Shown here piece after piece: positions 6,134 through 52,446 of a stretch of DNA of 64,000 nucleotides (its first letter is position 1; each line of letters starts with the position of its first letter). The position numbers were made by a program, and so were the translations under genes. Under the pieces are notes generated by a model. That model worked only from the letters and a program-made list of their open reading frames with translations, did not search any database and was not told the origin of the DNA. The stretch comes from Botryococcus braunii (Eukaryota; Chlorophyta; Trebouxiophyceae), in assembly GCA_002005505.1 (NCBI GenBank), contig KV908534.1:38934-102933 (forward strand). Direction: 5' to 3'.

Positions 6134-8328
6134 GATCTCTCCTGGCACGCATCACAAACGCGAAGATAATCTTCAACACCTTCCCTCAGCTTCGGCCACC
6201 AAAAATACCGTTGTATTTTCTCCAACATTGTAGTCCGGCCCACATGGCCTGCCTGTGGCACTTCATGGTTTTCTTTGAGAATGGCTTCTTTGAGCTCTTT
6301 ATCTTTACCATCTGCCATTTCGGGAACATACATTGCTTTTCCACGGAACCAGTAACCATCTTTAGCGACCAACTTCGCTCTTTGTCTTTTACGCCCATCC
6401 CTTAGAAGATGATCCTGCTCATACGCGGTCCGTATGCGGTGCAACCAGTCTTCCCCCTCGGGGCACCACATGGTGAACCCATCCGGGCACGCGTCGCCCG
6501 AGTCACTTGCTGCTCCAGGGACCACCCCACCTAATGGCGGGGCCGTACCGCCTCCAGTGGAACGCGCCCCCTTGCGCGGAAGTACAGCACACCTAATACG
6601 ATGACCTATGCCGCGCCCCCCCATTGCGGCCCTACGCTGAACAGAGCCCCTAGGAGTGTGCACCAAAGAACTAACGACGAACGCTGGATTCCTACTCAAA
6701 GGGTCCGCAACATTAGTACGACCGGGCTCATACTTCCACTCTATAGAGTACATCTGGAGCAACTCCGACCACCTGGCTTGCCGAGGGCTCAAAACCGATT
6801 GGGACGGCAAAAACGTGTTTGCTGCATGATCAGTGACCACTTCAAAGGGTTTCCCAAGGAGATAACATCGCCAATCAGTCAATGCCATACACACTGCAGC
6901 CAACTCTTGCTCGGTGACATGATAATTTCTCTCAGCATCAGAAAATTTCCGGCTCATATAGGCACATGGGCGTCCATTTTGCTCAAGCACAGCACCAACA
7001 CCATTCTTTGAGGCATCACACACGACCCGAAACTTAATCGCATCCGGGGAGAGATCAGGGATTGCCAACACTGGGGCATTTGTGGTGGCCCACTTCAACC
7101 CATCAAAGGCTTTATGACATGCATCAGTCCACAGCCAAGGGACACCTTTGCGCAATAAGTGATTCAACGGGGCAGCAAGTTGGCTATACCCTTGTACAAA
7201 TTTCCGCGAAAAATTGCAGAGGCCCAAAAACTGTCGTACCTCAGTGGCCGTCGTCGGTACGACCCACTTCATCACTGCTGCGACTTTATCCGGATCAATC
7301 TTGATTCCATGCTTCCCCACAATAAAGCCAAGATAGCGTAGTTCAGGCTGACAAAAAGAACACTTCTTTAGCTTCACAAACAATTTATCTTCACGTAGGC
7401 GCTCGAACACTTTTTGCAAATGCTCTTTATGCTCTTCTTCGGTTTTAGAGAAGATCAAAACATCATCAAGGTACACTACCACAAAGCCTTCAGCCACAAA
7501 GTCATGGAATACGCGATTCATCATACGTTGAAAAGTAGCGGGGGCATTTGTCAAACCGAAGGGTAGGACTTTGAACTGATAATGGCCAAAAGGTACACGG
7601 AAAGCAGTTTTGGGAACATCCTCCTCTTGCAAGCGAATTTAATGATAGCCAGAGAGTAAATCAAGACTTGTAAAGAACACAGCACCTTGCAGTTTATCAA
7701 GCAACTCATCAATCCGCGGGAGGGGATAACGATCAGGGACAGTAATGCGGTTTAACGCACGATAGTCGATAACCATACGCAATGTGTCATCCTTTTTCTT
7801 CACAAACAGAACAGGGCTGCTAAACGGACTGCAACTTGGCTGAATCAATCCCTGCTCAAGAAGTTCAGCAACCCGTTTCTGTGCTTCTTGCAACTCAGGC
7901 AAAGCTAAACGGTAACCAGGTCGGGATGGAGGAACATGTTTACTGTACAATGGGATGGTGTGGAACAGATGTCTGTCAGGGGGTAGGCCTTCTAATTTCT
8001 CAGAAAAGACATCACTGAGCTCAGCACGAAGGTGTTGACAAATGGGGTGATTCAATCCACTTTTATCAGAAGGGACATCGGCCTTGTTTGTAGGCCCAAA
8101 AGCAGGTTCAAACTCTTTAACATCATGATCATAATCGCTATGCCCTTCGTTACACGCCTCATTGCCCTCTTGCCTATCAACATGTTCATGCCCTTGCCCA
8201 TCCGAGCGTGTCTCATTATCATGCCCTTCATTCTTGCTTACCATGCCCACAAACACTGGACAGCCTTGCTTCATATAGCGCGCCAAATGCCTCGCAGAGA
8301 TGACAGGGGACTTCTTTCTAGCTCTCTT
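6134..8328 (-). pseudogene. G0 pol: RT, RNase H, integrase zinc finger
   Basis: The frame runs down from 8328. It has an RT with [11 protein letters not shown] and the catalytic VVYLDDVLIF, a gypsy RNase H (CDASKNGVGAVLEQNG, TDHAANTF), and the start of integrase with its HHCC finger (HEVPQAGHVGR...CDACQ). A TAA stop at 7639-7641 follows SGYH, where intact relatives continue QVRL, as a single in-frame nonsense change. Homology ends at about 6134, so the integrase DDE core, chromodomain and LTR are gone. Upstream, the frame continues across the E1 array into the protease piece at 18014-18178. Confidence 0.85.
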
Positions 8329-8366
8329 CACCCATGACAATAAATCTTGTCAGGCGCAAATCTGGG

Positions 8367-10163
8367 AAAAGGAAAGGAAGATTACATCCAAAGACCAGCC
8401 ACTAGGGCTGAAGAGGACGGCAGTACAATGAATTACCCATATCTAGCCAACTAAGGTCGCACAGCACCTGGGAGAGTGAGGTAGCTCTCCAGTGCTCTAG
8501 TCACAAATTTGGCAACCCCTTCAAGGTCTTCTTGCCACATAAACGTCTGTACAGATCGACTCCTTTGTTGAAAAAGATGCATAAATTGTTGCCGTACATG
8601 TTGTACAGCCGGACAAGTGAACAACAGATGATGTTCATCACCAACGAGCTCTAAGGAGCACCTCGTGCAAATCCTCTGGTCTCGAGGGATGCCTTGTTGT
8701 CTACCTTTATCAATAGGAAGGTCATGACACCCTAATCTAAATCGCATAAAGGTCCGCAATGTACCATTAGGAAGGTGGAGTTTGAGCGCACTCTTACTCC
8801 GTGGTACATGAGGCGGACGTGCGAACCACCTTTGGTATCTGCAGAATAAGGCTCTTGGGGATGCACAAGAGCGAGGGGAGATGTCTAGGTCATCCCATAT
8901 CATGTCACTTTTACGGTCTAACAGATCCTTTACCTGTGAAATGTCAATCTGCAAGGCTCTGTCAAACCGCACATGGTCAGCTATATAGTATCCTAGTTTC
9001 TTAAGTTGTTGCATAAGGGTACCCGAAAACGTTTCTCGGCCTTCTACTATTGCCAACCTAATGTCATGCATGAGGACCTTGTAGTGTAATGAATCAGGTC
9101 TCATGGCCGCTATATTGTTCCAAAACCTAGCCATACGTAAGATCCAAGTTGACCACAAAGAGAATATGTTTAATTCACAATTGATTATTTCCTCAGGGAT
9201 TGTCCGACGTACCCCCAAAATCTGAGCTAGGACCCGCTTGTGCGCATCCAATAGGGGTATACTACTAGGTTTTCCCGAAGACAATTGTCTGCCTTGAAAG
9301 CATCTGAATGCCCAGACTTCACATCCATAGGAGATGAGGGGTGGTAGGCAAGCTAAGTACAATTCTGTCATGAGCATCATTGACATGTTGCAACCAAGAT
9401 TGCTATAAGCTCTAGTAAGGTCTTCCCATGCTATCCAGAACCTCTGCTCGAGGTTCTTAATGCCGGCTTGAAGGCCATTCTTGGCATGAATCTGTAATCC
9501 AAGGTATTTAACCTCCTGTACCGGACTAATTCTAACCCCTGCAACCTCCAGAGAGGTAGAGAGTGTCAGAGGGTCTGGATTTACTGAAAGGTATTGCGTC
9601 TTGGCCCCATTTAGGCGCATGTCCATACTCTTACACCATTCTTGAGTAGCATTCACCAACACCTGTAGGTCCTCAACTGTAGGCGCGACGAGAACAAAAT
9701 CGTCGGCAAAGCCTAGCACTTGGATACGTATTATATTTAAACGTGTGCCATCAGGTAACTGAAGGCCAGCCGTGGGGCAATGGTGTGCAAGATATCGGGG
9801 GAGTCCATCCGACATAATTCCAAATAGTGTAGGGCTAATGGGGCACCCTTGAGGAACACCCGCACTTGATTCAAACAACCCCCCATGTTTGCCCTCAATT
9901 TTGATCGCCAATACTGTACTGTCTATTACAGCTTGGGTAGCATATAGAAAATCCCCTTGGATTCCCAACTGCTCCAAAATATGCCCTAACTTAAGACGCG
10001 ATACCCTGTCATAAGCTTTAGAGAGGTCCAGGAATGCAAAATGGAGTGGAGTGATGCCCATTGCCCAATCTATGAGATGTTGTATAACAAACAGTTGATG
10101 GGTGGTGGACATTTCAGGACGGAAGCCTGTTTGGCAAGAATCCGCATTTCAGGAATGTACGAA
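8367..10163 (-). mobile_element. 5'-truncated LINE (non-LTR retrotransposon) inside E1 copy 1
   Basis: Comparison with uninterrupted E1 copies puts the insertion exactly between 8366 and 10168, with TGGG duplicated (8363-8366 and 10164-10167). The minus-strand 5' end starts inside the RT domain, as is usual for LINEs. The 3' end is a pyrimidine-rich TTCCTTTCCTTTT with no poly(A). The 5' junction contains CCTGAAATGCGGATT, also present in the flanking E1 sequence, suggesting microhomology or template switching. Confidence 0.85.
8451..10163 (-). pseudogene. LINE reverse transcriptase, N-terminally truncated
   Basis: The protein enters at QTGFRPEM, a conserved RT segment, so the endonuclease and RT N-terminus are absent. 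Visible motifs are LDLSKAYDRVSR (first catalytic Asp), GVPQGCPISPTLF, LGFADDFVLVA (catalytic FADD), the thumb region (KYLGLQI) and a C-terminal cysteine-histidine knuckle beginning CTRCSLELVGDEHHLLFTC, typical of LINE ORF2 proteins. About 553 codons from the first internal ATG (10112) are free of stops, so the copy is fairly young. It ends 84 bp before the 3' end of the element. Inactive through truncation. Confidence 0.9.
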
Positions 10164-10921
10164 TGGGCTGCAGAAATCCGCATTTCAGGACATTTAATCA
10201 GGGGTTTTGAGGGCCATGGGCAGTACACGTGTGAGGCGTACTGCAAGTTGCCGTAGTACAAAGAAAATCTAGTGGGCCCTGCGCGACAAAGATGGTACAG
10301 TACCGCCCTGAAGTTGCAGGTGGGACATGCCGTTTGAAGCCCGGGGAGGTAAGGGCTCTGTTTGCAAGAGCTTTAGAGGGCGTTCCCAGGGCTTTCTTTT
10401 TGCAAGAGGCATACCAGTGGGTGGCCGTGGTGGCAAGGAGAAAGGGTGCGAAGTTTGGAGAGCATCGGGGAAGGGACGGAATTTTGCATGCCCAAGGTCC
10501 GAAAGGAAGCCGTGTGCCCGACACCTTGGTAACATTTTGCTGCAATATTTTCAAGCAATCCGTGATTGGTTTGGGGTATTTCTGAATGTTTTGGCTGGGC
10601 TGAAAGCCTGGCCCGTGTGAATGCGGACGGGCAGAGGGGAGGGGACGCACCCTCAAGGGGTGATGTTGGGCCCTACGCCGAGTTGCGGGGCCCAAAATTG
10701 AGAAATATGGTGAACTTCCACTTGTTGGTGCAACTGGTGTGTGTGAAACCAAGCGTTGGTCATGTGTAGGGGCTGTATCTCGTCGGCCTAGCTTCCATCC
10801 ACGTTTTGCCTTGCTCATGTAGGACCTTGATATTGAAGCTTGTGGGCTGTAAGCGCAAACTGGGGTTTTGCAGGCCAGACTTGCGTGAGTAACGCTGTGA
10901 CAAGACTTCTTGTCATGGGTG

Positions 10922-12493
10922 TCGCGCAAGAGCAAGGAAACCTCGGAAATTCGACTATCGCTCGTTTGAGCATTAGCGGAGCTCACCGACCACGGAGCTT
11001 GTAATAAAAATACATTCTTATTCCTTGCTATTGGCCACGTTTGAGAAGTTGCTTTTTATTTTCGGCGATTCTCAAGGTGCCGATCCGGGGCATTCAGCCC
11101 TACTTCCTCATTTCTGACGCGGAATGCGTTTGTTACCGAAAAAAAGTCATTTGAATGTTTTAAACGTAAGTTTGAAAGCATTTGATGCAATGTGTATAAG
11201 AAATTTCGACTTTTTGCTCCAAATCAAGGGTGGGCCCATGCAATGGGGGCCATGGCAAGTGGCAGCACCGACTTGCTATGATTTCAAAATGATTTTTTTA
11301 CTAGTTCAATACTTGCTATACTGCATCAATCTCCATATTTCCTTGGTATTGCCAAGGCTGGACTCGGATGGCAATGTTGATGGCCATACCATGCCCACAT
11401 GTGATGCCACACAAATATGGCTCAAAAACTGAAGGGCCAGCATATTTTTCTACATGACTCTGCTTGAACATTGTTTAGATTCGCTGCCTTCTCATCCACC
11501 GAAATTATCACAGGAATCTGATGTTTATTTCAAGAAAGCGCCTTCGTCGCATAGCCGCTTTCGCTAGTACTAATGAATCAACACAAAGTCATGTAACTTG
11601 GGCAACCTACTCACATGCCTGGCCACAATTGTTGTGAGTTGGTGCAGTGGATGCCTGTGTGTGGAAGAGAGGGTCAATATATAAATTGATGGGCAGCAAC
11701 ACTTCAATGAGTCAGGACTTGATGGGGTGTGACTCTCGAAGCAGCAAGAGCGCTAGCGGGACGAGGAGCTTGGCTTTCAACAAGGCTGGCACATCCTGCG
11801 CTTGCATTTCGGGGACACTGGCCAACAACATGCATGGATTAGGCTTTCATATTAAATGTAAAGCTGAGGCTGCATTTGATGAGCATAGGAAGGCCATAAT
11901 TCAAACCCACAGTGACGTTCTCGCTCTCGTATTTTTGACCGAGCTTACTTGGAATCATGGCCCCAGAAACCCCTAGCTGCTTGATATTACTCTCTAAGGC
12001 TGGAGAAGCGGTGATGGCAGCATCAATGCTATTTAAAGCGCTGCCCATCAGGCATTCCTTTGCCCACAATCTGCGCAAGCTGTCTGGCAAGCTTGCATGC
12101 CTTGCGCAAGGCAGCTTGTGGGGGCGACCCGGCCGACGCCGATCTTCCAACTTTCCCATCTCCATTAGATTGATCCAATTCAGCTCACATGCCCTGACTG
12201 GCTGAAAAAGACATGCACAGCCTAGTTTATGTATTAGCAGTGTGCCCCATTTGGCGCGGTCATGCCCTGCCTCTTCAGAACAATGTGCCGCCGTCTCTCG
12301 CGCGTAAAGCCAGAGTCTCACTTCCGCCCTGCAATTCCGTCCCAACCTCTCAAACCTCTACTCCTCATCCTTGAAATCTTTGAACTCCAAATTCCACCAG
12401 TGGAAGCCCAGATGTGGTGTGCTATTATGCACAACAATAAACCCTCAAGTAAGTCCCATCCCACGTGGACAACCTAGGGTTGGATTGAGTCGT
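10922..12493. repeat. S1 passenger, copy 1 (1572 bp)
   Basis: The sequence lies between E1 copies 1 and 2 and is repeated at 13286-14857 and 15650-17221 with only a few substitutions (for example near 12390, 13864, 15850 and 16043). The flanks of E1 within the array (TCGT before, TCGC after) are not an exact target duplication, so S1 is not simply the empty site of one E1. It may contain a captured gene fragment (see 11839-12345). Confidence 0.8.
11839..12345 (-). CDS. Hypothetical 168-aa frame in S1 with an AT-hook-like motif (possible captured exon)
   Basis: A 168-codon open frame with LEDRRRPGRPHKLP, where RRPGRP resembles an AT-hook. It is followed by an ordinary-looking stretch (SLPDSLRRLWAKECL, SALNSIDAAITASPALESN). 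A GTAAGC donor-like site falls at IPS|K, so the real coding part may stop there. Another plausible minus-strand coding piece with a stop (SVPEMQAQDVPALLKAKL...) begins after a CAG near 11825, but the phases of the two do not join simply. Identical copies are at 14203-14709 and 16567-17073. Function not recognised; it may be a fragment picked up by the composite element, or chance. Confidence 0.3.
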   Translation of the reverse strand: MGRNCRAEVRLWLYARETAAHCSEEAGHDRAKWGTLLIHKLGCACLFQPVRACELNWINLMEMGKLEDRRRPGRPHKLPCARHASLPDSLRRLWAKECLMGSALNSIDAAITASPALESNIKQLGVSGAMIPSKLGQKYESENVTVGLNYGLPMLIKCSLSFTFNMKA

Positions 12494-13285
12494 CACCCAT
12501 GACAATAAATCTTGTCAGGCGCAAATCTGGGCTGCAGAAATCCGCATTTCAGGACATTTAATCAGGGGTTTTGAGGGCCATGGGCAGTACACGTGTGAGG
12601 CGTACTGCAAGTTGCCGTAGTACAAAGAAAATCTAGTGGGCCCTGCGCGACAAAGATGGTACAGTACCGCCCTGAAGTTGCAGGTGGGACATGCCGTTTG
12701 AAGCCCGGGGAGGTAAGGGCTCTGTTTGCAAGAGCTTTAGAGGGCGTTCCCAGGGCTTTCTTTTTGCAAGAGGCATACCAGTGGGTGGCCGTGGTGGCAA
12801 GGAGAAAGGGTGCGAAGTTTGGAGAGCATCGGGGAAGGGACGGAATTTTGCATGCCCAAGGTCCGAAAGGAAGCCGTGTGCCCGACACCTTGGTAACATT
12901 TTGCTGCAATATTTTCAAGCAATCCGTGATTGGTTTGGGGTATTTCTGAATGTTTTGGCTGGGCTGAAAGCCTGGCCCGTGTGAATGCGGACGGGCAGAG
13001 GGGAGGGGACGCACCCTCAAGGGGTGATGTTGGGCCCTACGCCGAGTTGCGGGGCCCAAAATTGAGAAATATGGTGAACTTCCACTTGTTGGTGCAACTG
13101 GTGTGTGTGAAACCAAGCGTTGGTCATGTGTAGGGGCTGTATCTCGTCGGCCTAGCTTCCATCCACGTTTTGCCTTGCTCATGTAGGACCTTGATATTGA
13201 AGCTTGTGGGCTGTAAGCGCAAACTGGGGTTTTGCAGGCCAGACTTGCGTGAGTAACGCTGTGACAAGACTTCTTGTCATGGGTG
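12494..13285 (+). mobile_element. E1 copy 2 (792 bp, uninterrupted)
   Basis: This is the reference intact copy. It starts CACCCATGACAATAAATC, ends ACTTCTTGTCATGGGTG, and shows the empty LINE site at 12528-12532. A 262-codon minus-strand frame spans the element in every copy but has no recognisable domain. Confidence 0.85.
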
Positions 13286-14857
13286 TCGCGCAAGAGCAAG
13301 GAAACCTCGGAAATTCGACTATCGCTCGTTTGAGCATTAGCGGAGCTCACCGACCACGGAGCTTGTAATAAAAATACATTCTTATTCCTTGCTATTGGCC
13401 ACGTTTGAGAAGTTGCTTTTTATTTTCGGCGATTCTCAAGGTGCCGATCCGGGGCATTCAGCCCTACTTCCTCATTTCTGACGCGGAATGCGTTTGTTAC
13501 CGAAAAAAAGTCATTTGAATGTTTTAAACGTAAGTTTGAAAGCATTTGATGCAATGTGTATAAGAAATTTCGACTTTTTGCTCCAAATCAAGGGTGGGCC
13601 CATGCAATGGGGGCCATGGCAAGTGGCAGCACCGACTTGCTATGATTTCAAAATGATTTTTTTACTAGTTCAATACTTGCTATACTGCATCAATCTCCAT
13701 ATTTCCTTGGTATTGCCAAGGCTGGACTCGGATGGCAATGTTGATGGCCATACCATGCCCACATGTGATGCCACACAAATATGGCTCAAAAACTGAAGGG
13801 CCAGCATATTTTTCTACATGACTCTGCTTGAACATTGTTTAGATTCGCTGCCTTCTCATCCACCAAAATTATCACAGGAATCTGATGTTTATTTCAAGAA
13901 AGCGCCTTCGTCGCATAGCCGCTTTCGCTAGTACTAATGAATCAACACAAAGTCATGTAACTTGGGCAACCTACTCACATGCCTGGCCACAATTGTTGTG
14001 AGTTGGTGCAGTGGATGCCTGTGTGTGGAAGAGAGGGTCAATATATAAATTGATGGGCAGCAACACTTCAATGAGTCAGGACTTGATGGGGTGTGACTCT
14101 CGAAGCAGCAAGAGCGCTAGCGGGACGAGGAGCTTGGCTTTCAACAAGGCTGGCACATCCTGCGCTTGCATTTCGGGGACACTGGCCAACAACATGCATG
14201 GATTAGGCTTTCATATTAAATGTAAAGCTGAGGCTGCATTTGATGAGCATAGGAAGGCCATAATTCAAACCCACAGTGACGTTCTCGCTCTCGTATTTTT
14301 GACCGAGCTTACTTGGAATCATGGCCCCAGAAACCCCTAGCTGCTTGATATTACTCTCTAAGGCTGGAGAAGCGGTGATGGCAGCATCAATGCTATTTAA
14401 AGCGCTGCCCATCAGGCATTCCTTTGCCCACAATCTGCGCAAGCTGTCTGGCAAGCTTGCATGCCTTGCGCAAGGCAGCTTGTGGGGGCGACCCGGCCGA
14501 CGCCGATCTTCCAACTTTCCCATCTCCATTAGATTGATCCAATTCAGCTCACATGCCCTGACTGGCTGAAAAAGACATGCACAGCCTAGTTTATGTATTA
14601 GCAGTGTGCCCCATTTGGCGCGGTCATGCCCTGCCTCTTCAGAACAATGTGCCGCCGTCTCTCGCGCGTAAAGCCAGAGTCTCACTTCCGCCCTGCAATT
14701 CCGTCCCAACCTCTCAAACCTCTACTCCTCATCCTTGAAACCTTTGAACTCCAAATTCCACCAGTGGAAGCCCAGATGTGGTGTGCTATTATGCACAACA
14801 ATAAACCCTCAAGTAAGTCCCATCCCACGTGGACAACCTAGGGTTGGATTGAGTCGT
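13286..14857. repeat. S1 passenger, copy 2
   Basis: 1572 bp, nearly identical to 10922-12493. Differences include A for G at about 13864 and C for T at about 14740. Confidence 0.85.
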
Positions 14858-15649
14858 CACCCATGACAATAAATCTTGTCAGGCGCAAATCTGGGCTGCA
14901 GAAATCCGCATTTCAGGACATTTAATCAGGGGTTTTGAGGGCCATGGGCAGTACACGTGTGAGGCGTACTGCAAGTTGCCGTAGTACAAAGAAAATCTAG
15001 TGGGCCCTGCGCGACAAAGATGGTACAGTACCGCCCTGAAGTTGCAGGTGGGACATGCCGTTTGAAGCCCGGGGAGGTAAGGGCTCTGTTTGCAAGAGCT
15101 TTAGAGGGCGTTCCCAGGGCTTTCTTTTTGCAAGAGGCATACCAGTGGGTGGCCGTGGTGGCAAGGAGAAAGGGTGCGAAGTTTGGAGAGCATCGGGGAA
15201 GGGACGGAATTTTGCATGCCCAAGGTCCGAAAGGAAGCCGTGTGCCCGACACCTTGGTAACATTTTGCTGCAATATTTTCAAGCAATCCGTGATTGGTTT
15301 GGGGTATTTCTGAATGTTTTGGCTGGGCTGAAAGCCTGGCCCGTGTGAATGCGGACGGGCAGAGGGGAGGGGACGCACCCTCAAGGGGTGATGTTGGGCC
15401 CTACGCCGAGTTGCGGGGCCCAAAATTGAGAAATATGGTGAACTTCCACTTGTTGGTGCAACTGGTGTGTGTGAAACCAAGCGTTGGTCATGTGTAGGGG
15501 CTGTATCTCGTCGGCCTAGCTTCCATCCACGTTTTGCCTTGCTCATGTAGGACCTTGATATTGAAGCTTGTGGGCTGTAAGCGCAAACTGGGGTTTTGCA
15601 GGCCAGACTTGCGTGAGTAACGCTGTGACAAGACTTCTTGTCATGGGTG
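14858..15649 (+). mobile_element. E1 copy 3 (792 bp)
   Basis: Same length and ends as copy 2, with no interruption. Near-identity to copy 2 points to recent tandem amplification or gene conversion. Confidence 0.85.
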
Positions 15650-17221
15650 TCGCGCAAGAGCAAGGAAACCTCGGAAATTCGACTATCGCTCGTTTGAGCA
15701 TTAGCGGAGCTCACCGACCACGGAGCTTGTAATAAAAATACATTCTTATTCCTTGCTATTGGCCACGTTTGAGAAGTTGCTTTTTATTTTCGGCGATTCT
15801 CAAGGTGCCGATCCGGGGCATTCAGCCCTACTTCCTCATTTCTGACGCGTAATGCGTTTGTTACCGAAAGAAAGTCATTTGAATGTTTTAAACGTAAGTT
15901 TGAAAGCATTTGATGCAATGTGTATAAGAAATTTCGACTTTTTGCTCCAAATCAAGGGTGGGCCCATGCAATGGGGGCCATGGCAAGTGGCAGCACCGAC
16001 TTGCTATGATTTCAAAATGATTTTTTTACTAGTTCAATACTTGATATACTGCATCAATCTCCATATTTCCTTGGTATTGCCAAGGCTGGACTCGGATGGC
16101 AATGTTGATGGCCATACCATGCCCACATGTGATGCCACACAAATATGGCTCAAAAACTGAAGGGCCAGCATATTTTTCTACATGACTCTGCTTGAACATT
16201 GTTTAGATTCGCTGCCTTCTCATCCACCGAAATTATCACAGGAATCTGATGTTTATTTCAAGAAAGCGCCTTCGTCGCATAGCCGCTTTCGCTAGTACTA
16301 ATGAATCAACACAAAGTCATGTAACTTGGGCAACCTACTCACATGCCTGGCCACAATTGTTGTGAGTTGGTGCAGTGGATGCCTGTGTGTGGAAGAGAGG
16401 GTCAATATATAAATTGATGGGCAGCAACACTTCAATGAGTCAGGACTTGATGGGGTGTGACTCTCGAAGCAGCAAGAGCGCTAGCGGGACGAGGAGCTTG
16501 GCTTTCAACAAGGCTGGCACATCCTGCGCTTGCATTTCGGGGACACTGGCCAACAACATGCATGGATTAGGCTTTCATATTAAATGTAAAGCTGAGGCTG
16601 CATTTGATGAGCATAGGAAGGCCATAATTCAAACCCACAGTGACGTTCTCGCTCTCGTATTTTTGACCGAGCTTACTTGGAATCATGGCCCCAGAAACCC
16701 CTAGCTGCTTGATATTACTCTCTAAGGCTGGAGAAGCGGTGATGGCAGCATCAATGCTATTTAAAGCGCTGCCCATCAGGCATTCCTTTGCCCACAATCT
16801 GCGCAAGCTGTCTGGCAAGCTTGCATGCCTTGCGCAAGGCAGCTTGTGGGGGCGACCCGGCCGACGCCGATCTTCCAACTTTCCCATCTCCATTAGATTG
16901 ATCCAATTCAGCTCACATGCCCTGACTGGCTGAAAAAGACATGCACAGCCTAGTTTATGTATTAGCAGTGTGCCCCATTTGGCGCGGTCATGCCCTGCCT
17001 CTTCAGAACAATGTGCCGCCGTCTCTCGCGCGTAAAGCCAGAGTCTCACTTCCGCCCTGCAATTCCGTCCCAACCTCTCAAACCTCTACTCCTCATCCTT
17101 GAAATCTTTGAACTCCAAATTCCACCAGTGGAAGCCCAGATGTGGTGTGCTATTATGCACAACAATAAACCCTCAAGTAAGTCCCATCCCACGTGGACAA
17201 CCTAGGGTTGGATTGAGTCGT
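15650..17221. repeat. S1 passenger, copy 3
   Basis: 1572 bp. Private substitutions near 15850 (GCGTAATG), 15869 and 16043 show that it is a real, separate copy. Confidence 0.85.
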
Positions 17222-18013
17222 CACCCATGACAATAAATCTTGTCAGGCGCAAATCTGGGCTGCAGAAATCCGCATTTCAGGACATTTAATCAGGGGTTTT
17301 GAGGGCCATGGGCAGTACACGTGTGAGGCGTACTGCAAGTTGCCGTAGTACAAAGAAAATCTAGTGGGCCCTGCGCGACAAAGATGGTACAGTACCGCCC
17401 TGAAGTTGCAGGTGGGACATGCCGTTTGAAGCCCGGGGAGGTAAGGGCTCTGTTTGCAAGAGCTTTAGAGGGCGTTCCCAGGGCTTTCTTTTTGCAAGAG
17501 GCATACCAGTGGGTGGCCGTGGTGGCAAGGAGAAAGGGTGCGAAGTTTGGAGAGCATCGGGGAAGGGACGGAATTTTGCATGCCCAAGGTCCGAAAGGAA
17601 GCCGTGTGCCCGACACCTTGGTAACATTTTGCTGCAATATTTTCAAGCAATCCGTGATTGGTTTGGGGTATTTCTGAATGTTTTGGCTGGGCTGAAAGCC
17701 TGGCCCGTGTGAATGCGGACGGGCAGAGGGGAGGGGACGCACCCTCAAGGGGTGATGTTGGGCCCTACGCCGAGTTGCGGGGCCCAAAATTGAGAAATAT
17801 GGTGAACTTCCACTTGTTGGTGCAACTGGTGTGTGTGAAACCAAGCGTTGGTCATGTGTAGGGGCTGTATCTCGTCGGCCTAGCTTCCATCCACGTTTTG
17901 CCTTGCTCATGTAGGACCTTGATATTGAAGCTTGTGGGCTGTAAGCGCAAACTGGGGTTTTGCAGGCCAGACTTGCGTGAGTAACGCTGTGACAAGACTT
18001 CTTGTCATGGGTG
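17222..18013 (+). mobile_element. E1 copy 4 (792 bp), right end of composite 1
   Basis: It ends at GGGTG (18013), directly followed by the TCTT duplication and the G0 protease frame. Its right end is followed by TCTTAACAG here but by TCGCGCAAG in the other copies, so this is the outer edge of the array. Confidence 0.85.
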
Positions 18014-18178
18014 TCTTAACAGTAGCAGAAATAGACTTTACAATCATGCCTCGCCCTCTGTTCCAAAATGTACACGTATCTTCCGCTACATCAATCTTGG
18101 CCTTATAGCGCTTAAGGAAATCCATGCCCAACAAGACATCACAGTCACCAGCCAATTTTGGTAGCACATAGTAAGTAT
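18014..18178 (-). pseudogene. G0 aspartyl protease, C-terminal part
   Basis: The minus-strand peptide LPKLAGDCDVLLGMDFLKRY matches the second half of a gypsy protease; the D-LLGMDFL block corresponds to DLILGEDFLKER in G1. The upstream half is at 51748-52195 and the downstream RT begins at 8328. Both joints are in phase once the insertions are removed. Confidence 0.8.
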
Positions 18179-19685: not shown

Positions 19686-19743
<58 letters not shown>

Positions 19744-19747
<4 letters not shown>

Positions 19748-20220: not shown

Positions 20221-20222
20221 CA

Positions 20223-20349
<127 letters not shown>

Positions 20350-22467: not shown

Positions 22468-23052
<585 letters not shown>

Positions 23053-23062
23053 CACACACACA

Positions 23063-23161
<99 letters not shown>

Positions 23162-24915: not shown

Positions 24916-24929
24916 CCCTCCCCCCCTTA

Positions 24930-32122: not shown

Positions 32123-32129
32123 CCATGAA

Positions 32130-37757: not shown

Positions 37758-37769
37758 TCGCCGATACCA
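37758..37769 (-). promoter_or_regulatory. Primer-binding site of C1
   Basis: The minus strand reads TGGTATCGGCGA, directly abutting the 5' LTR end, then diverges (TCCCGTCG) from the other elements. Confidence 0.8.
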
Positions 37770-38833: not shown

Positions 38834-38844
38834 ATTAAGGCACT

Positions 38845-40352: not shown

Positions 40353-40445
<93 letters not shown>

Positions 40446-40595
40446 CCACACACATCATCCTCATCATCCTTTCGTTACTTTGCAACCATCTAATAGAAAC
40501 TAGCACGCCGCTCCTCGTGTTGGTAACGGCTATGTCACACGTGTCCGCCATGGCAAAAGCTAGGCTATCCTTCAAACCAGGTTGGCCGGAAGAAT
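39598..40595. repeat. S2 passenger, copy 3 (truncated)
   Basis: Matches S2 from its start through the (CT)n tract to GGCCGGAAGAAT, then stops. There is no TRIM in the (CT)n tract. Its minus-strand 143-codon frame (39684-40115) is shared with S2 copy 4 (47383-47814), but no domain was recognised. Confidence 0.8.
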
Positions 40596-40599
40596 CACT

Positions 40600-40975
40600 G
40601 TGACGAAGGATTTTTCGGAAAGTCTTCGTATTTTATTCGTAAATTTCTTAAATACGAAGGGTTTACGAAGATTTACGAAGCATTTACGAAACAGAGTCGA
40701 AGGTGTTGTGAAAGGGGCTTCAAAATGCGAAAATGTTACGAATTTCAAACGAAAGATTTGCGAAAGGTTTACGAATGGTTTCCGAGATTCGGCCGATATT
40801 TTTATTTTTGCGAATGCTTTCCGAAGGAGCTTTTACGAAGGATTTGCGAATGATACTCGACATGATTGCGAAGCTGTGTTCGAGAGTGATTTACGGCGGT
40901 TATACGGTGAGTTTGCGAATAGGCCACGATGCAAATAAGACGTATATGCGAAGGAAATGCGAATGACTGGAAATT
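40600..40975. repeat. CGAA-rich degenerate repeat
   Basis: The tetramer CGAA (or TTCG) occurs about 25 times in roughly 375 bp, mostly as TTTACGAAG, TTTGCGAA and relatives at irregular spacing. Open frames here reflect the repeat. Origin unknown. Confidence 0.7.
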
Positions 40976-41101
40976 TACATACGAAGTTACCTTGTCAGAG
41001 CCCATTCCCTGAATTACTTCATCCGCCTCTGCAGCTAAGTACAACTATGAAGTGCTAATTATAATATCCTCCAGTAGCAAAGCTACTATCATTTCGACCT
41101 G

Positions 41102-41154
41102 AGCGCTACTAGTAGCGCTACGTAGCAATAGTACTAGTATACTAGTACTATTGC
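41102..41154. repeat. Two adjacent perfect palindromes (18 bp and 30 bp)
   Basis: 41102-41119 (AGCGCTACTAGTAGCGCT) and 41125-41154 (centre TAGTATACTA) are perfect inverted repeats with no loop, separated by 5 bp. Confidence 0.85.
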
Positions 41155-41344
41155 ACTAGTAAATATCGTGAGAAGACTGACAATCATATTGTATATATGA
41201 CAACAACCTCCAGCTCGTCTCGTGCAAGCTTCTCACACTGCACATGTATTCCTGACTGCCACTGTTGACATTAATGTCAATATTGTCATGTGCAAGTAAG
41301 TTGCAGGTGCATTGGGATCCACCAATGAGCACGTGCACTACGTA

Positions 41345-41420
41345 GGACCACTGTAAACATTGTTCAGGATGATATACCAACACGTGCACCACTGTATACA
41401 TTGTTCAGGATGATATACCT
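41345..41420. repeat. Short direct repeat
   Basis: ACATTGTTCAGGATGATATA occurs twice about 42 bp apart, preceded each time by CCACTGTA. Confidence 0.8.
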
Positions 41421-41580
41421 CCCAATTTCTAAGGATTGCCCTTCCACCCGTATACGCGGAAGTAAAGCTATGTTTGACAGACTCAAGGAGAGGCAAGAAT
41501 GCTGCTTGGCGAGCTCAGGCCTTCAAGTTGTCCACATCTTCTCTGTGCTGGCCCGTTGTTCTCCTCCTCCGAAGAGTCAT

Positions 41581-41788
41581 GAACATCCGAGACGTCCCCC
41601 TTTCCCTGGCAGCAAAAATGGGGGCGGTGTCAATCAACTTGCCAAGTTTGATGCATGCTCAGCACGGCCATGACCAGCTCACGACCACTTCGCGAACCTT
41701 TGCAAAGGCAGTCACTGCAGCACTGAGGCACACGCATACGCAAGAGCAACAGCGAACGCAAAGCACGCAACCACAGTCTCACACACAT

Positions 41789-41864
<76 letters not shown>

Positions 41865-42258
41865 ACACACACACACATGCGGCATGGAGACACCGGTGCA
41901 ATCCTGATACTAGAAAGGGTGAAGGTGGGGTGACACAAATCAAAGGGAAGGGATGCGGAGACCTTAACGGCGGGAAGGGGCCCTCTGCCCTTGCGGAGCC
42001 GTGCTGCCCTCCTAATTTCTTGTTCCGGGGAGGAATGAACATTCAATACGTCTCCCCTGTCCTGGCAGCAAGAAGGGGTGGGGGGGGCGGTGGTCAATAA
42101 ACTTGCAAAGTTGGATCCATATGGCTGTGCACAGGCATGACCACTTCAAGAAAACAGAGGCAGTCAATGCAGCAATGAGACATACGCAGAGATGCATGCA
42201 TATGCACGCACACGCACAGATACAGACACAGCAGTGCGCGCGCGCCCACCCACCCACC

Positions 42259-42290
<32 letters not shown>

Positions 42291-42323
42291 GACACAGACA
42301 CACAGACGCATGCGTGCGCGCGC

Positions 42324-42394
<71 letters not shown>

Positions 42395-42786
42395 CGCGTT
42401 TGGCATGAAGACACCGCGGTGCACTCCTGATCCTAGATAAGGGAAAGGTTGGGCGGCACAGGGAAGGGGTGCGGAGACCTTATCAGCAGGAATGGGCCCT
42501 CTGCACTTGCGAAGCCGTGCTGGCCTAGGGACAATAGGAGGACTCCTAGGAAGGTCAAAGACAATAGGCCTATTGTCTTTGACCGGAGAGGAATGAACAT
42601 CCAAAACGTCTCCCCTTTCCTGGCAGCACAAAGGGGGGGGGGGGGCTGGCTGTCAATATACTTGCAAAGTTGGATCCATATGGCTGTGCACAGGCATGAC
42701 CACCTCACGAAACTTGCAGAGGCAGTCGATGCAGCAATGAGTCATACGCACACACGCATGCACGCACAGACACAGCGGTGCGTGCG

Positions 42787-42836
<50 letters not shown>

Positions 42837-42846
42837 CACGCGCACG

Positions 42847-42877
<31 letters not shown>

Positions 42878-42892
42878 GCACGCACGCACACG

Positions 42893-42930
<38 letters not shown>

Positions 42931-43085
42931 TGTGGCATGGAGACACCGCGGTGCACTACTGATCCCAGAAAGGGGAAACGTTGGGTGACACAGATCTTAG
43001 GGAAGGAAGGGGTGGGGGGAGGAGACCTTATCGGCGGGAGGGTTCCCTCTGCCCTTGCGGGGACGTTTGGGGGCGGGTGATTTCT
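41581..43085. repeat. Three long tandem units (about 460-560 bp) each with (CA)n tracts
   Basis: Units begin at GAACAT near 41581, 42037 and 42595. Each has a purine-rich part (CCTGGCAGCA...GGGGG), a CATGACCA/GCAATGA part, a (CA)n tract (about 41787-41876; 42267-42391; 42789-42927) and a CATGG...GACACCG...GGAGACCTTA part. They are diverged copies of one unit. On the minus strand each has a conserved CCAGGRAAGGGGAGACGT...GATGTTCAT stretch that could be a duplicated exon, but this is unproven. Confidence 0.75.
42553..42584. repeat. Perfect 32-bp palindrome
   Basis: Inverted halves GGTCAAAGACAATAGG / CCTATTGTCTTTGACC with no spacer, present only in the second tandem unit. Confidence 0.9.
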
Positions 43086-43159
43086 TAATCTTTTCTCCCT
43101 TTTTTGCAGTCTTCGCCCTCTGGCAAAACAGATTTTGACTGTCAGACAGTGCTGCTTAC

Positions 43160-44759
43160 CAAGTACGTGTTGACCAGGGCTAAAGTGTGACACAAAGGAC
43201 TCAACCTGGAGGTTCCAGACTTGTGGCTACTTCCCAGTAAAGGCATAGGAGAAAAGCGCAGAGCGTGTTCCAATGGCAGGCAACATTCAGGTGTTAGGTG
43301 TATGTGAAGTACCTTGGCGGTGTGGGCCGCATCTGGAGGTGGTCCAGGGTGATTTGCCGTCTCTACTGCCTCTCCTTGCGTGCGATCTCTAATCTGTCCC
43401 ATGACAATGGCATTTTCGAAAAATAATTCTCGTGTGCTAAACCCATAAATACCCGTTTGTAAGACGAGTGAAATATAAGTACCGTGTATTCCCCCAGGCA
43501 TAATAGCCGCACTACACGATCAATGAATTCAAAGTGACAGCATGCATGCTCTCACTTTCACATGATCATGAGACCAGCACACCACACACACGCACTCACA
43601 CACACCAACACATGGAGGGACACGCTCAAACGCACAAATAAGGTATGCAGGTCGGGGGCGGGGAGAGGGAGATAGAGGGGGGGGGGGGGGAGGGGGGAGG
43701 GAGAGGGAGAGAGAGACAGGGGGGAGGGGGGGCACAAGCACAAGCACACCTGTACTGCCATCAAGGCAGCAAAGTCCATTGAGGACGTCGACGCGTTGCT
43801 CCTTGCAACTCCAACCTCCAAGCTCGTAGCTGCAGATCTGTTTAGCACACAATCATGTGTCAGGCCATGGTCTCAGGCTGAGTCCACAGACTTTTCAGTT
43901 AGTAATAGTGACTTTTAAGTGCAGAGAATAGGCTGTGTACTAGAAGCCCAATGTGTCTTACATGCCTTGGTGCCTGTGAGTGAGGCAGAACAAGGCTAAC
44001 TTTCATGAGGTTGCCAACTGAAGATTCCTTAAGGGCATACCTGTCTGTGTTCTGCACACTTGCCGTTGCAGCGCATATTGCTAAGTTCCTCTTCTGAGCT
44101 GTGCTGGTATGGTTCATGCGATGATGCTGAAAATCAGCCTTTCTTTCATGTTTACACTTCAATGTTTTTGCCTGTGGGCCAAAGATTACATGTATGTTAG
44201 GGGCTGTGGAGACGGCAGTCCGTTTCTGAATGTGCAAGATTGGAAGAAGCATATAGCCATGGAGACATAGAAAAGGAGGCATAGAGTTTAAAGGCATGGA
44301 AGGGCAAGTGGCCCTTACACTGCAAGACGTTTGGACAGCTCACAGAAATTCGTACCTGTTCCCAGTCTTCAGGTTGTGTGCCATTCACAGCGTGACCCAA
44401 GAGGGCTTTGGCCCAGTCCTTCTCCTGTCTCCACTCCATGAAATATCGCATATCCTCATTGGTTACATTCAACTCCTTCCCTGACAGAAGTTGTTTGTGT
44501 ACAGCTCTATTCATGTCTGATGCCGACCTATCCAGCATAAACATTTATGCATTTCAGTACGATACAAAAAGATTAGAAACCATACTGCAATGGCCAGAGT
44601 ACAAAGTACAATGTTGCTTATGACAGTAAACAGAAAGATAAAGAAGAATAATTTGTACTTACTTCGTCAAGTACTTTCTAACCTCTTCTGGGGTCACGCC
44701 GTAGACATGTACGACTCTGCTAACAATATATTCCCTTGCAGCCCTCACCAAAGTTGAGT
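43160..44759 (-). CDS. Putative multi-exon gene fragment of unknown function (six exons)
   Basis: Six segments joined by GT-AG boundaries keep one phase: 44759-44663 (ends before GTAAGT), 44527-44356 (before GTACGA), 44171-44041 (before GTATGC), 43837-43750 (before GTGTGC), 43393-43313 (before GTACTT) and 43205-43160 (before GTAAGC). Peptide samples: [80 protein letters not shown]. The composition looks like real protein, but I recognise no family. Both ends are missing: no start exon and no stop. It lies between S2 pieces in composite 2, so it may be a host gene fragment captured by the transposon. The last two exons are the least sure. Confidence 0.5.
43653..43732. repeat. G-rich purine tract
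   Basis: 80 bp of almost only G and A with runs of 5-14 G; it could form G-quadruplexes on the plus strand. It lies in the predicted intron between the 43837-43750 and 43393-43313 exons. Confidence 0.8.
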
Positions 44760-44769
44760 CTGCACACCG

Positions 44770-45214
44770 GTAGCAGCACACCCGTCAACCCTCAGTGTTT
44801 GCATTTGCAGAACTGCAACAGCAGCCCCATCCCCCCCTTCCCTGCCCCTCCCAACCAAGTATGCACGAATTTAACGAGGTACATATAACAGGATGCATAT
44901 GGGCATACAGGGCTCATCCGTTACTAGCAAGTACATCCCCTTGGCCAATCCAACGTCAAGATTGTCCTTTGGATGCCGTAGCCAATTCGTCCATTGGTAC
45001 TTCCTCGCCAGACTCATCCATTCCTGATGAGGGCCCCGGCCCTTTTTTCTGTGTTGGACATTGGGCTCCACAGCTGTAGCTGTAGAGCCTGCAGCTGGAG
45101 TGCCCTGGTAGGGCACGATGGCGCCTTCACCAACGTCATGTGCCGCATGTGGCACATCACCTATTAGTATAACAATATTCTTTACCGTAACAAACAAATT
45201 GGGTAGTTGAGTAA
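44770..45214 (-). other. Unassigned DNA upstream of the exon-like segments
   Basis: Minus-strand frames here give ordinary-looking peptide (for example SSGMDESGEEVPMDELATAS), but I could not find splice sites joining them in phase to 44759. They may hold a further exon. Confidence 0.3.
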
Positions 45215-46543
<1,329 letters not shown>

Positions 46544-47296
46544 CACTCCCCCGAAAAAATTAGTGGCGGTCACTTTCAGAAGTTGTTGCTACATATAGAT
46601 AGGGGCTCTGCATACAAGCGTGCCATTAAACGGTCCCTTTGTGAGTTGTTGTTAGCGCATGGGGCTAGCAAGCCATGACTCTAAATAGATTGCAAGCAAT
46701 CCCCAAATTCTTGACATGGCCCAGAATTTCTGTTTCCTCAAGTTTTGTCCCCTACGGCCCTTGCGTTTAAAGCCTCACAAGGTTTCCCCTTAGACCTTGC
46801 TCGCGGGTCCGGGCCCACACACACCTCTGTCAAGGGCCAATCCTTTGGATAGTGGCACCCAAAGCCATGCTGGGCTCCTATCCTCTTCATACCACACGAA
46901 AATACAGCATGCAAAATTGCATTTTAGCCCAAAGTGACCCCCGAACCTTGTACGGAGTACATTGGCTTACCTGAAAACTCACACGCCCTGACCGTCCCTC
47001 TTCAAATACACGGCCTTGTGCCTTGCTTTCTAATCAAATTTAATTTGGAAAGGGAATTTTCTTTGTTAGAATTCCAGGCGTGACGACTCTGGACCACAGC
47101 CGAGTCGCCCGCTTGCCCACCTTAAAAAATTTGCCTTAGTGCGAAAGAGAGAGTCGGTTCATCGTACTCTTGGCAGTACATACCACGTCAGCACTAGAGC
47201 TACACATGGCTGTGTCTCGCTTCCCTAGGCACGTGCGGCTACCTTAGGCAATTTCGCCCTGTATATTCGACCGCCACTTATTTTTTCGGGGGAGTG
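46544..47296 (-). mobile_element. E2 copy 4 (753 bp, inverted)
   Basis: Reverse complement of the other E2 copies. It begins with the mirror of the right end (CCCGAAAAAATTAG) and ends with the mirror of the left end (CTTATTTTTTCGGG). The S2 start sequence ATGCGAG faces outward on both sides. Confidence 0.85.
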
Positions 47297-48049
47297 ATGC
47301 GAGTTTGGTGTTTTCTTCCTAACTCACTCGCCGGAAATCTGCTGGCGTGTCGCGAATGCATTAAGCACTGGGCCGCAAAACTTCAGCTATAATGATAACT
47401 TACGTCTTTAAGGTAAATACAATGAAAATGTTGGGTAAATTTTAAAAAACTGCTTCGTGGGTTGCTGCCGGGATTTCGCCGATGGTCTTTCGAAGTGCGA
47501 CACCCTTGTCTTGCACTTCCGTCACCGGACATGCTGTGAAATAAGACATTCTGGCAAATTAAAAGATTTTTTGAAGGATTGATTCGTGTGCAATTCGATA
47601 TTTGGCTACTTTCAAGACTTTGTCCTACGTGATTGGACCAACGGGTTTGATAAGTGGCGGATAGACAAATGTAGCATTCAAACAACGGTCCAGAACTTTT
47701 TAAACTACGGTGGTTAGACCCATTTGCTTGATACCGCAACCATCTGCTGGCCAAAACGTCCAGATATATGCCACATGGTGTAGATCTGATGATGATCCAG
47801 TGGTAGCAAAACAATAAACATGAAGCTCTTAAAACTTATAGGGTTCACCTACGTTCGTCTTGGATACTAAAGAGCCCTTTCAAGTATATGGGTACGTCCA
47901 AATTTGGGAGGTGTCTGTCCAATGAAGATGTGGATGTGTATGTGCACATGCCCACTACAAACACGAATGAACTCAAGCAGATAAAGTGCAAGAAATCTAT
48001 TGTTTCTTATTGGCATTTCCAGATGTCACTCTCGCTCCAGCATGTCATT

Positions 48050-48140
<91 letters not shown>

Positions 48141-48770
48141 ATCTCTCATAAACCCACACACACATCATCCTCATCATCCTCTCGTTAATTTGCAACCATC
48201 TAATAGAAACTAGCACGCCGCTCCTCGTGTTGGTAACGGCTATGTCACACGTGTCCGCCATGGCAAAAGCTAGGCTATCCTTCAATCCAGGTTGGCCGGA
48301 AGAATGACAATGCCATGAAGCATTTTGAGTCACACAAATCGTTACTAATTGAGAGCGTAGGCCCATATGTTTTACTTTCAAACGTTTCTTGAGCCATCCG
48401 ACCATGTCTAAAATCATGGTCGTGTGTGTAATGCAAGCCGTGGCTTGTTAGATTCCATATACCATGGTATTTTTATTGCTCTCCATTCGTCAACATGGTG
48501 CTAACCAAACTCTGGCACGTTCTTACATAATCTAATTGAAATGACGTTTCAATTATGTATGCCAAGTCCCAAACGAAGGGAAGCCATGTGCTGCTATGAC
48601 GAGAAATGGAGCGCACTTCTATTTAATGAGTGTCACATGTGCTAGGTGTTGTGTACCCCTTCCCCACATGAGTGGGGGACGCCACCCCTGGGTCATTTGG
48701 GGCCTATCAGGAAACCCACGTGACACTCACGTGACATGACCTATTATTGTACCAGGGGGATTAAGGCACT
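47297..48770. repeat. S2 passenger, copy 4 (1474 bp, no TRIM)
   Basis: Complete S2 without TRIM. It gives the empty TRIM site within the (CT)n tract and the empty C1 site (GGGGGATTAAGGCACT). Minus-strand 143-codon (47383-47814) and about 80-codon frames are present; no domain recognised. Confidence 0.85.
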
Positions 48771-49523
48771 CACTCCCCCGAAAAAATAAGTGGCGGTCGA
48801 ATATACAGGGCGAAATTGCCTAAGGTAGCCGCACGTGCCTAGGGAAGCGAGACACAGCCATGTGTAGCTCTAGTGCTGACGTGGTATGTACTGCCAAGAG
48901 TACGATGAACCGACTCTCTCTTTCGCACAAAGGCAAATTTTCTAAGGTGGGCAAGCGGGCGACTCGGCAGTGGTCCAGAGTCGTCACGCCTGAAATTCTA
49001 ACAAAGAAAATTCCCTTTCCAAATTAAATTTGATTAGAAAGCAAGGCACAAGGCCGTGTATTTGAAGAGGGACGGTCAGGGCGTGTGAGTTTTCAGGTAA
49101 GCCAATGTACTCCGTACAAGGTTCGGGGGTCACTTTGGGCTAAAATGCAATTTTGCATGCTGTATTTTCGTGTGGTATGAAGAGGACAGGAGCCCAGCAT
49201 GGCTTTGGGTGCCACTATCCAAAGGATTGGCCCTTGACAGAGGTGTGTGTGGGCCCGGACCCGCGAGCAAGGTCTAAGGGGAAACCTTGTGAGGCTTTAA
49301 ACGCAAGGGCCGTAGGGGACAAAACTTGAGGAAACAGAAATTCTGGGCCTTGTCAAGAATTTGGGGATTGCTTGCAATCTATTTAGAGTCATGGCTTGCT
49401 AGCCCCATGCGCTAACAACAACTCACAAAGGGACCGTTTATTGGCACGCTTGTATGCAGAGCCCCTATCTATATGTAGCAACAACTTCTCAAAGTGACCG
49501 CCACTAATTTTTTCGGGGGAGTG
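48771..49523 (+). mobile_element. E2 copy 5 (753 bp)
   Basis: Same ends and length as the other copies. One local change, GCACAAAGGCAAAT near 48930, replaces GCACTTGGGCAAAT. Confidence 0.85.
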
Positions 49524-50994
<1,471 letters not shown>

Positions 50995-51747
50995 CACTCC
51001 CCCGAAAAAATAAGTGGCGGTCGAATATACAGGGCGAAATTGCCTAAGGTAGCCGCACGTGCCTAGGGAAGCGAGACACAGCCATGTGTAGCTCTAGTGC
51101 TGACGTGGTATGTACTGCCAAGAGTACGAAGAACCGACTCTCTCTTTCGCACTTAGGCAAATTTTCTAAGGTGGGCAAGCGGGCGACTCGGCAGTGGTCC
51201 AGAGTCGTCACGCCTGAAATTCTAACAAAGAAAATTCCCTTTCCAAATTAAATTTGATTAGAAAGCAAGGCACAAGGCCGTGTATTTGAAGAGGCACGGT
51301 CAGGGCGTGTGAGTTTTCAGGTAAGCCAATGTACTCCGTACAAGGTTTGGGGGTCACTTTGGGCTAAAATGCAATTTTGCATGCTGTATTTTCGTGTGGT
51401 ATGAAGAGGATAGGAGCCCAGCATGGCTTTGGGTGCCACTATCCAAAGGATTGGCCCTTAACAGAGGTGTGTGTGGGCCCGGACCCGCGAGCAAGGTCTA
51501 AGGGGAAACCTTGTGAGGCTTTAAACGCAAGGGCCGAAGGGGACAAAACTTGAGGAAACAGAAATTCTGGGCCTTGTCAAGAATTTGGGGATTGCTTGCA
51601 ATCTATTTAAAGTCATGGCTTGCTAGCCCCATGCGCTAACAACAACTCACAAAGGGACCGTTTAATGGCACGCTTGTATGCAAAGCCCCTATCTATATGT
51701 AGCAACAACTTCTCAAAGTGACCGCCACTAATTTTTTCGGGGGAGTG
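50995..51747 (+). mobile_element. E2 copy 6 (753 bp), right edge of composite 2
   Basis: Ends GGGGGAGTG at 51747. Next comes the TAT duplication and the G0 frame, not S2, so this is the outer boundary. Confidence 0.85.
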
Positions 51748-52446
51748 TATGCACACAAGGCAAAGACTATAAAACTGTTCTCAACTTCACTTGATGCACC
51801 ACTTTCGCAATGTCACCCGTGGCCACTTCCACTTCCAATTCATCCACTTGTTGCGGGGTTATGTTCACTCGCTTCAGAAATTCTGCCGAGATGAATGAGA
51901 GTTTCCCCCCGGTATTAACTGCACAATAAGCGGTTGCCCTTGCAACCGTACCGCGCAAGACCATTTGCACTTCGGGGTGCTCTTTTCTCACCATTGATAT
52001 ACTGGGCCTCTTCTTGTCATACCACACTTCAAAAGACCACGGAGCCACAATTTTCTCTTCCCCATGCGCAACTTTTAAAGCTACACTTTCGTTGTGCCTC
52101 CCCTCCATAATTCTCTCTGTACTTTTGAAAAGGGGAGCAACACTTACGGCCTTAGCAACTCGGCAAAACAAAATAAGCGCCAATCTGACGGGCATTCTTC
52201 TTCAGGGCATTATACGCGGAGAGCACTTCATGGGCTTTTTCGGGCTTAAGCACAAACGCATACACGTGACCATCTTGCAGGTTCACTTGGGGGGGTATCT
52301 TCACAAACAAGGATATCAATACCAGGTCCCCATTCCAAACAAACATGAGCAGCCACAAGTTTTGAGAAAGATAAGTCTTCATACCAACCAAAGCGTCCAC
52401 GCCCTCGAGAGGATCCACGCCCACTCGGTGCATTCAGAGGAGACAC
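51748..52446 (-). pseudogene. G0 gag C-terminus and protease N-terminal part
   Basis: Minus strand. A gag tail rich in RG (GRGSSRGRGRFGW) near 52390-52440 is followed, after frame changes, by a linker and the protease start (AYCAVNTGGKLSFISAEFL). The catalytic triplet reads NTG where relatives have DTG, which would abolish activity. A TAG at 51769-51767 interrupts the frame that otherwise runs on, across the E2 array, into 18178-18014. The gag capsid region and LTR are missing beyond about 52446. Confidence 0.75.

Follow-up and report, generated by a model that had tools for sequence, protein, structure and literature searches.

Two probable composite-like, non-autonomous DNA transposon families, moved by their outermost ends, in one photosynthetic eukaryote

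Two pairs of sequences, E1/S1 and E2/S2, are probably two non-autonomous composite-like DNA transposon families that are moved by their outermost ends and whose arrays are altered by unequal exchange, a reading to which we assign a probability of roughly 0.7. Each pair forms an array in the window (i.e., the whole stretch of 64,000 nucleotides that was analysed, C212:38934-102933, from an assembly of 176 Mb in 989 contigs). In both arrays a shorter element, E, alternates with a longer sequence, S, and both lie in the same gypsy element.

The E1 array (8329-18013) consists of four E1 copies alternating with three S1 copies, all on the plus strand. Its outer flanks read TCTT on both sides (8325-8328 and 18014-18017), a 4-bp target site duplication (TSD). 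E1 is 792 bp long, with 24-bp terminal inverted repeats (TIRs) that start CACCCATGACAA and a near-palindrome within the TIRs, and S1 is 1572 bp long. The first E1 (8329-10921) is interrupted by a reverse-transcriptase fragment matching RVT_1 (about 8367-10162), and is followed by S1 (10922-12493), E1 (12494-13285), S1 (13286-14857, the query for the S1 genome search), E1 (14858-15649), S1 (15650-17221) and E1 (17222-18013). There are no differences among E1 copies 2 to 4.

The gypsy sequence between the arrays (18018-18178) ends in the left copy of the 3-bp TSD of the E2 array, TAT, which is read again at 51748-51750. The E2 array (18179-51747) has six E2 copies alternating with S2; E2 is 753 bp long, with 28-bp TIRs that start CACTCCCCCG, and S2 is about 1471 bp long and contains a CT run. 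The first two E2 copies (18179-18931 and 20958-21710, plus strand) are each followed by an S2 copy on the same strand (18932-20957 and 21711-23771), the second of which has its end at 38834-38844, beyond a nested LTR retrotransposon (23772-38833) that is outside the system. A third E2 (38845-39597) and a truncated S2 (39598-40595), both on the plus strand, precede a further interruption of about 4.6 kb (40596-45212). The array then continues with an inverted and truncated S2 (45213-46543, minus strand), an inverted E2 (46544-47296, minus strand) and, on the plus strand, S2 (47297-48770), E2 (48771-49523, the query for the E2 genome search), S2 (49524-50994, the query for the S2 genome search) and E2 (50995-51747).

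The terminal motif is CACCC in E1 and CACTC in E2, both families being of the form CA..TG (CAC..GTG), and a comparison of E1, S1, E2 and S2 with one another yielded only short similarity at chance level. The E lengths and terminal motifs, and the alternation of each E with a longer fixed S, agree with a preliminary description of the window. The same description placed TSDs at the outermost ends only. This holds for E2, in which the flanks of an internal copy are mismatched (ACT/ATG), and is slightly soft for E1, in which three of four bases agree around an internal copy (TCGT/TCGC).

The window also contains sequences of other kinds. The LTR element at 23772-38833 has identical long terminal repeats, and in one of them lies a gypsy element (24617-31487) whose 299-bp LTRs are likewise identical; these are recent nested insertions. 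Imperfect CA-rich repeats occupy 41780-42993 within the 4.6-kb interruption, a 51-bp minisatellite lies in the carrier gypsy (5649-5881), and a tandem pair of about 414 bp each, 86% alike, is found next to an AT run (62037-62881). The inverted E2-S2 unit (45213-47300) has an S2 start on each side of the inverted E2, and on contig C384 a long minus-strand array abuts a long plus-strand array near position 128150. Ten proteins of the window were scanned against Pfam: nine have matches among retrotransposon families, and the one left, the E1 frame (262 aa), has none. A genome search with PF00504 gave 35 matches, mostly partial; the host has chlorophyll-binding-protein genes, and on this basis we regard it as a photosynthetic eukaryote.

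The gypsy element that carries the arrays exists elsewhere in array-free form. A query of 666 bp was built from the carrier with both arrays removed and each target kept once, and the best 40 of 104 candidates were scored. All 40 gypsy copies match at 96% identity, 37 of them from position 1 to 666 and the other three from 1 to 664 or 665. Both arrays are therefore exact net insertions. Together with the outer TSDs, the array-free copies support the preliminary claim that each of the two unrelated arrays was inserted as a unit in the same gypsy element.

On a second contig, C516, E1-S1-E1 is followed by 163 bp of gypsy sequence and then by E2-S2-E2. This contig is the same as the window in the right flank of E1 and the left flank of E2, and its first E2 has 0 differences in 753 positions from that of the window. 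Only the inner array boundary is present on C516, the other two outer ends not being seen there. The arrays of the window and of C516 are one insertion. An assembly artefact produced by collapsed or repeated reads might be suspected given such long and near-identical repeats, above all with E1 copies 2 to 4 identical. The recurrence of the inner boundary, with the same flanks, on a second contig counts against a local artefact, as do TSD-flanked monomers on other contigs, and we regard this explanation as having almost no chance of being correct.

Matching outer TSDs are found well beyond the window. Genome-wide, the end pattern of E1 was counted 197 times and that of E2 140 times, with about 100 places listed for each; 45 stretches around listed places (L001-L045) were read, along with end pieces for 10 further E2 loci, a choice of loci that favours intact ends. 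Both elements occur elsewhere as solo E, as E-S-E and as (E-S)n-E, and solo and composite copies mostly have matching outer TSDs. Solo E1 copies with both ends have a perfect 4-bp TSD in 15 of 16 cases, the exception (L039) matching at 3 bp. For solo E2, the 3-bp TSD matches in 5 of 5 (C87, C187, C269, C57 and L002), of which C87 lies within a CA run and carries little weight, and C87, C269 and C57 were taken as solo from paired ends 752-816 bp apart, their interior being unread. C635, which on its right runs up to the end of the contig, was omitted from this count.

Among E1 composites with readable outer ends, the TSD matches in three of four: TCTT in the window, CCCG at L013 and TTCC at L014, where a partial E1 lies 16 bp ahead of the composite. 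The fourth, L041, does not match. The remaining E1 composite or E-S loci (L005/L040, L006-L007, L008, L009-L010/L042, L012, L015, L016, L017, L018, L020-L023, L031, L035, L043, L044 and L045) were left out because an outer end was cut or degraded, fell in an N gap, or lay beyond the contig or outside the stretches fetched. E2 composites have a 3-bp outer TSD in seven of eight cases: TAT (window), AAA (L004), ATT (C24), TTA (C55), GTT (C8), CAC (C222) and ATA (C349), with L003 matching at 4 bp and not at 3. The last five of the seven were picked for intact ends and were read at their outer ends and in the list of S2 matches. At C24, C55 and C349 the S2 match falls exactly between the two E2 copies, as it does in part at C8 and C222, and the E2 copies have the same orientation at C24, C8 and C349. 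At C150, C177, C260, C363, C384, C516 and C961, E2 loci as well, the two outer ends were not both read.

Taking both families together, outer TSDs match at 10 of the 12 composites with readable ends; for multimers, both outer ends are readable only in the window's two arrays. With the exact empty site, this count supports the preliminary proposal of mobilisation by the outermost ends, and we infer that the window's arrays came as E-S-E or longer and not as a single E.

The survey yielded some further observations on insertion sites. At L024 (1650-2576) an older E1 has a solo E1 inserted into its right end. Three of the 16 solo E1 copies (L025, L034 and L036) lie in related sequence and have one AGAG in common, and the right flank is the same at L005 and L041; judged from these flanks, an E1 hot spot is possible. 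No third family of the same design was seen in 46 sequences (341,146 bases).

E and S behave as one system. The search with S1 listed 57 matches on 16 contigs (best 40 of 59 candidates scored), E1 adjoining on all 16, and the search with S2 listed 50 matches on 12 contigs (best 40 of 55 candidates), E2 adjoining on 11, with C961 unchecked. Distances among E copies and among S copies are strongly correlated (Mantel r 0.96, permutation p 0.0001, ten loci, of which at most nine are independent given that the window and C516 are one insertion). On C432, E1 is 83% identical and S1 is 74-83% identical in pieces, and the two still form a tandem array. The co-divergence and this diverged array indicate that E and S have travelled together for long. 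The longest open frames are 172 aa in S1 and 150 aa in S2, and among the copies read there appears to be one fixed S per family, with no sign of coding. The idea that arbitrary cargo is mobilised hence finds no support in those copies.

One could instead regard S as an ordinary satellite into which a MITE was inserted once, the outer TSDs being coincidental. Long arrays of this general appearance do exist, as on C505, with its runs of S, and on C384. Such a history would, however, leave the adjacency of E and S on nearly every listed contig to be explained, and would require coincidence at 10 of 12 outer TSDs, where by chance a match would be expected at roughly one site in 64 or one in 256. 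The S-S junctions described below also differ from the site expected under insertion with a TSD, and this explanation seems to us highly improbable.

A more serious rival is stepwise gain, in which a single E is inserted with its TSD and an E-S circle or array later recombines into it by homology, the old outer TSD being kept. This predicts an identical outer structure, and Kojima and Bao depict it as a model for KolobokP (PMC9587614, in part). The variants carried by the E copies of a locus bear on the matter. The left and right E hardly differ at L013, L014, L015, L016 and the window; private variants common to both number two at L013, one each at L015, L016 and the window (C516 being excluded from the comparison) and none at L014. 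At L004 four private variants occur in both E2 copies, in a small comparison set. In longer arrays, private variants shared by the E copies number one on C174, two on C451 and 97 on C432, and there are none on C505, C511 and C516. With a single crossover, any private variant carried by the resident E would end up in just one of the two E copies, whereas private variants are found in both at L013, L015, L016, L004 and the window, unless they were later converted. Stepwise gain would further require a separate event at each of the ten TSD-matched composites.

Recombination between E copies nevertheless clearly occurs, as seen in L041, in the inverted unit of the window and in homogenised arrays. 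At L041 the outer flanks are unmatched and the two E1 copies differ by 4%, yet they have three private variants in common. The unmatched flanks and the divergence suggest that ectopic recombination also builds E-S-E, and the shared variants of such unlike copies show that private variants can become common within a locus, so that local conversion can mimic the pattern. This weakens the argument from shared variants, and stepwise gain keeps some weight, although we consider it unlikely.

Tandem growth, also put forward in the preliminary description, is supported by a nested insertion common to neighbouring units of the window. The first two S2 units contain the same mini-element (19744-20220 and 22576-23052), which has 152-bp terminal repeats (TGTGGCG..GTTACA) and is nested at the CT run of S2. 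On C516 it is present in only the first of the S2 units read. Its presence in two neighbouring units implies that one unit was copied, most simply at this site. The number of units is not equal between the window contig and C516.

Some arrays contain S copies that adjoin without an E. The order on C505 is E-S-S-S-E-S-S-E and onward, and the S-S junction is GAGTCGT-CTG-TCGCGC in 11 of 11 read, one of which differs by a base further upstream. On C184, with S1 pieces that match those of the window at 89-94% identity, the junction is GAGTAGT-CAG-TCGCGC. The three extra bases fit the ends of E: CTG and CAG would be remnants if a departing E (CA...TG) leaves one base at one end and two at the other. 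Given that most E copies on C505 have an extra C on the left, excision may have left no more than TG there. On the simplest reading of these junctions, C505 and C184 would record two separate excisions of E.

These junctions also bear on a reading in which E is an LTR, belonging to a small LTR retrotransposon that lacks coding sequence; single E copies would then be solo LTRs and the arrays tandem LTR elements. Tandem LTR elements with shared internal LTRs are known (PMC11899658, in part), as are tandem TRIMs (PMC9587614, in part), and the near-identical E copies of each locus resemble LTR pairs. The S-S junctions, however, resemble E excision, the ends are CAC..GTG with TIRs of 24 and 28 bp and not TG..CA, the TSD of E2 is 3 bp, and, as regards a primer-binding site after the 5' LTR, neither strand of S1 or S2 has a leading TGG by inspection. 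We therefore find this explanation very hard to credit.

An autonomous partner with the same TIRs was not found by TIR searches of the genome: one search returned 0 places and a second returned four, three of which are E1 copies, the match on C702 not having been looked at. Unpaired ends proved to have E1 interior in 13 of 13 sampled, and C74 and C131, where E ends lie far apart, were rejected as candidates, the intervening sequence being insertions within E1 and E2. Genome searches with PF02992 (Transposase_21) and PF05551 gave no match, but the control genomes were likewise silent for both, so that neither search is informative. E1 was also considered as a coding element, given a stop-free frame of 240 codons in many copies, and rejected, as substitutions by codon position number 46/50/38 (between a copy from the window and another at 83% identity, with two indel columns) and as the 262-aa frame has no Pfam match. 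Replitrons were considered and dropped, E1 and E2 having TIRs and TSDs.

Elements of the CACTA/EnSpm group (CMC) have a 3-bp TSD and CACTA/CACTG termini. CACTA/Chapaev (CMC) elements are like E1 and E2 in their CAC..GTG ends and in TSDs of 3 bp (as in E2) or 4 bp (as in E1), but the termini are CACTC in E2 and CACCC in E1. The ends and TSDs hint at the CACTA/Chapaev group as a possible affiliation, for which no supporting transposase was found.

Under composite-like transposition, E would be a long terminal direct repeat with TIRs of its own, able to move alone as well, and S a fixed internal region. A transposase supplied in trans would cut one left and one right E end. If the outermost pair is cut, an E-S-E or longer unit would move and create a target duplication of 4 bp for E1 or 3 bp for E2; if an inner pair is cut, one E would be removed and S-S left. 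Unequal exchange among direct E copies would presumably make an array longer, shorter or homogenised in place.

We tentatively propose, at somewhat less than even odds, that the composite-like layout of long terminal direct repeats had two origins outside Kolobok in a single photosynthetic eukaryote, and that arrays act as donors in which any pair of left and right E ends may be cut, giving solo E, E-S-E, S-S remnants and satellite-like blocks. If so, composite-like transposons would be recurrent among eukaryotic DNA transposons and not the peculiarity of one animal lineage, and the layout would persist without genes of its own, as in these two families. There would also be a route from transposon to satellite (satellites derived from transposons are the subject of a review, PMC12628747, seen in part), by insertion as a unit, local tandem growth and excision that leaves E-free repeats. 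The many empty gypsy sites and the E-S-E monomers, whose TSDs are clean, allow transposition to be tested against recombination.

The mechanism put forward in the preliminary description is largely right. The same description held this class to be undescribed in eukaryotes, which is wrong: related arrangements are reported, in the available passages, for maize Ac macrotransposons (PMC9910405), coral CMITEs (PMC2872659) and KolobokP (PMC9587614). In maize, DNA between two Ac elements is excised and reinserted, one excision having left a modified TSD (PMC9910405, PMC4270019). As proposed here, ends on two copies carry the intervening DNA; the maize cases, however, are individual events with varied DNA inside, whereas here there is one S per E across subfamilies. 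The CMITEs are likewise tandem non-coding elements with TIRs, one array having highly similar intervening sequence, but they are about 100 bp long with TTAA, and the passages describe no movement of whole arrays.

The closest comparison is KolobokP, reported from seven animal phyla, with a layout that its authors call unlike that of any other DNA transposon (PMC9587614, as are the statements on KolobokP below, from the available passages). It occurs in TSD-flanked solo, monomer, (LTDR-INT)n-LTDR and LTDR-(INT)n-LTDR forms, and in autonomous KolobokP the INT encodes a DDD/E transposase and a His-Me nuclease. Titles and abstracts, mainly outside subscription journals, gave no second lineage with such a layout. 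The families described here have the same LTDR-INT-LTDR layout, in which the LTDR has its own TIRs, and all four structural forms. TSDs are 3-4 or 4-5 bp by family in KolobokP and 3 (E2) and 4 (E1) bp here, and LTDR excision is suggested there as E excision is here. The non-autonomous oyster families measure 1,738-3,261 bp, and seven monomers compared in size here (L013, L014, C24, C55, C8, C222 and C349) measure 2,608-3,162 bp. The two systems differ in their terminal bases (5'-RR..YY-3' in KolobokP, 5'-CA..TG-3' in E1 and E2), in TIR length (11-18 bp against 24 and 28 bp) and in repeat length (about 450 or 660 bp against 792 and 753 bp). INT-INT junctions lose 3-4 bp of INT, whereas S-S junctions gain three bases, and KolobokP is found in animals, whereas the present host has chlorophyll-binding-protein genes. 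The novelty lies in the host, in the differing ends and in the recurrence of one design in two unrelated families.
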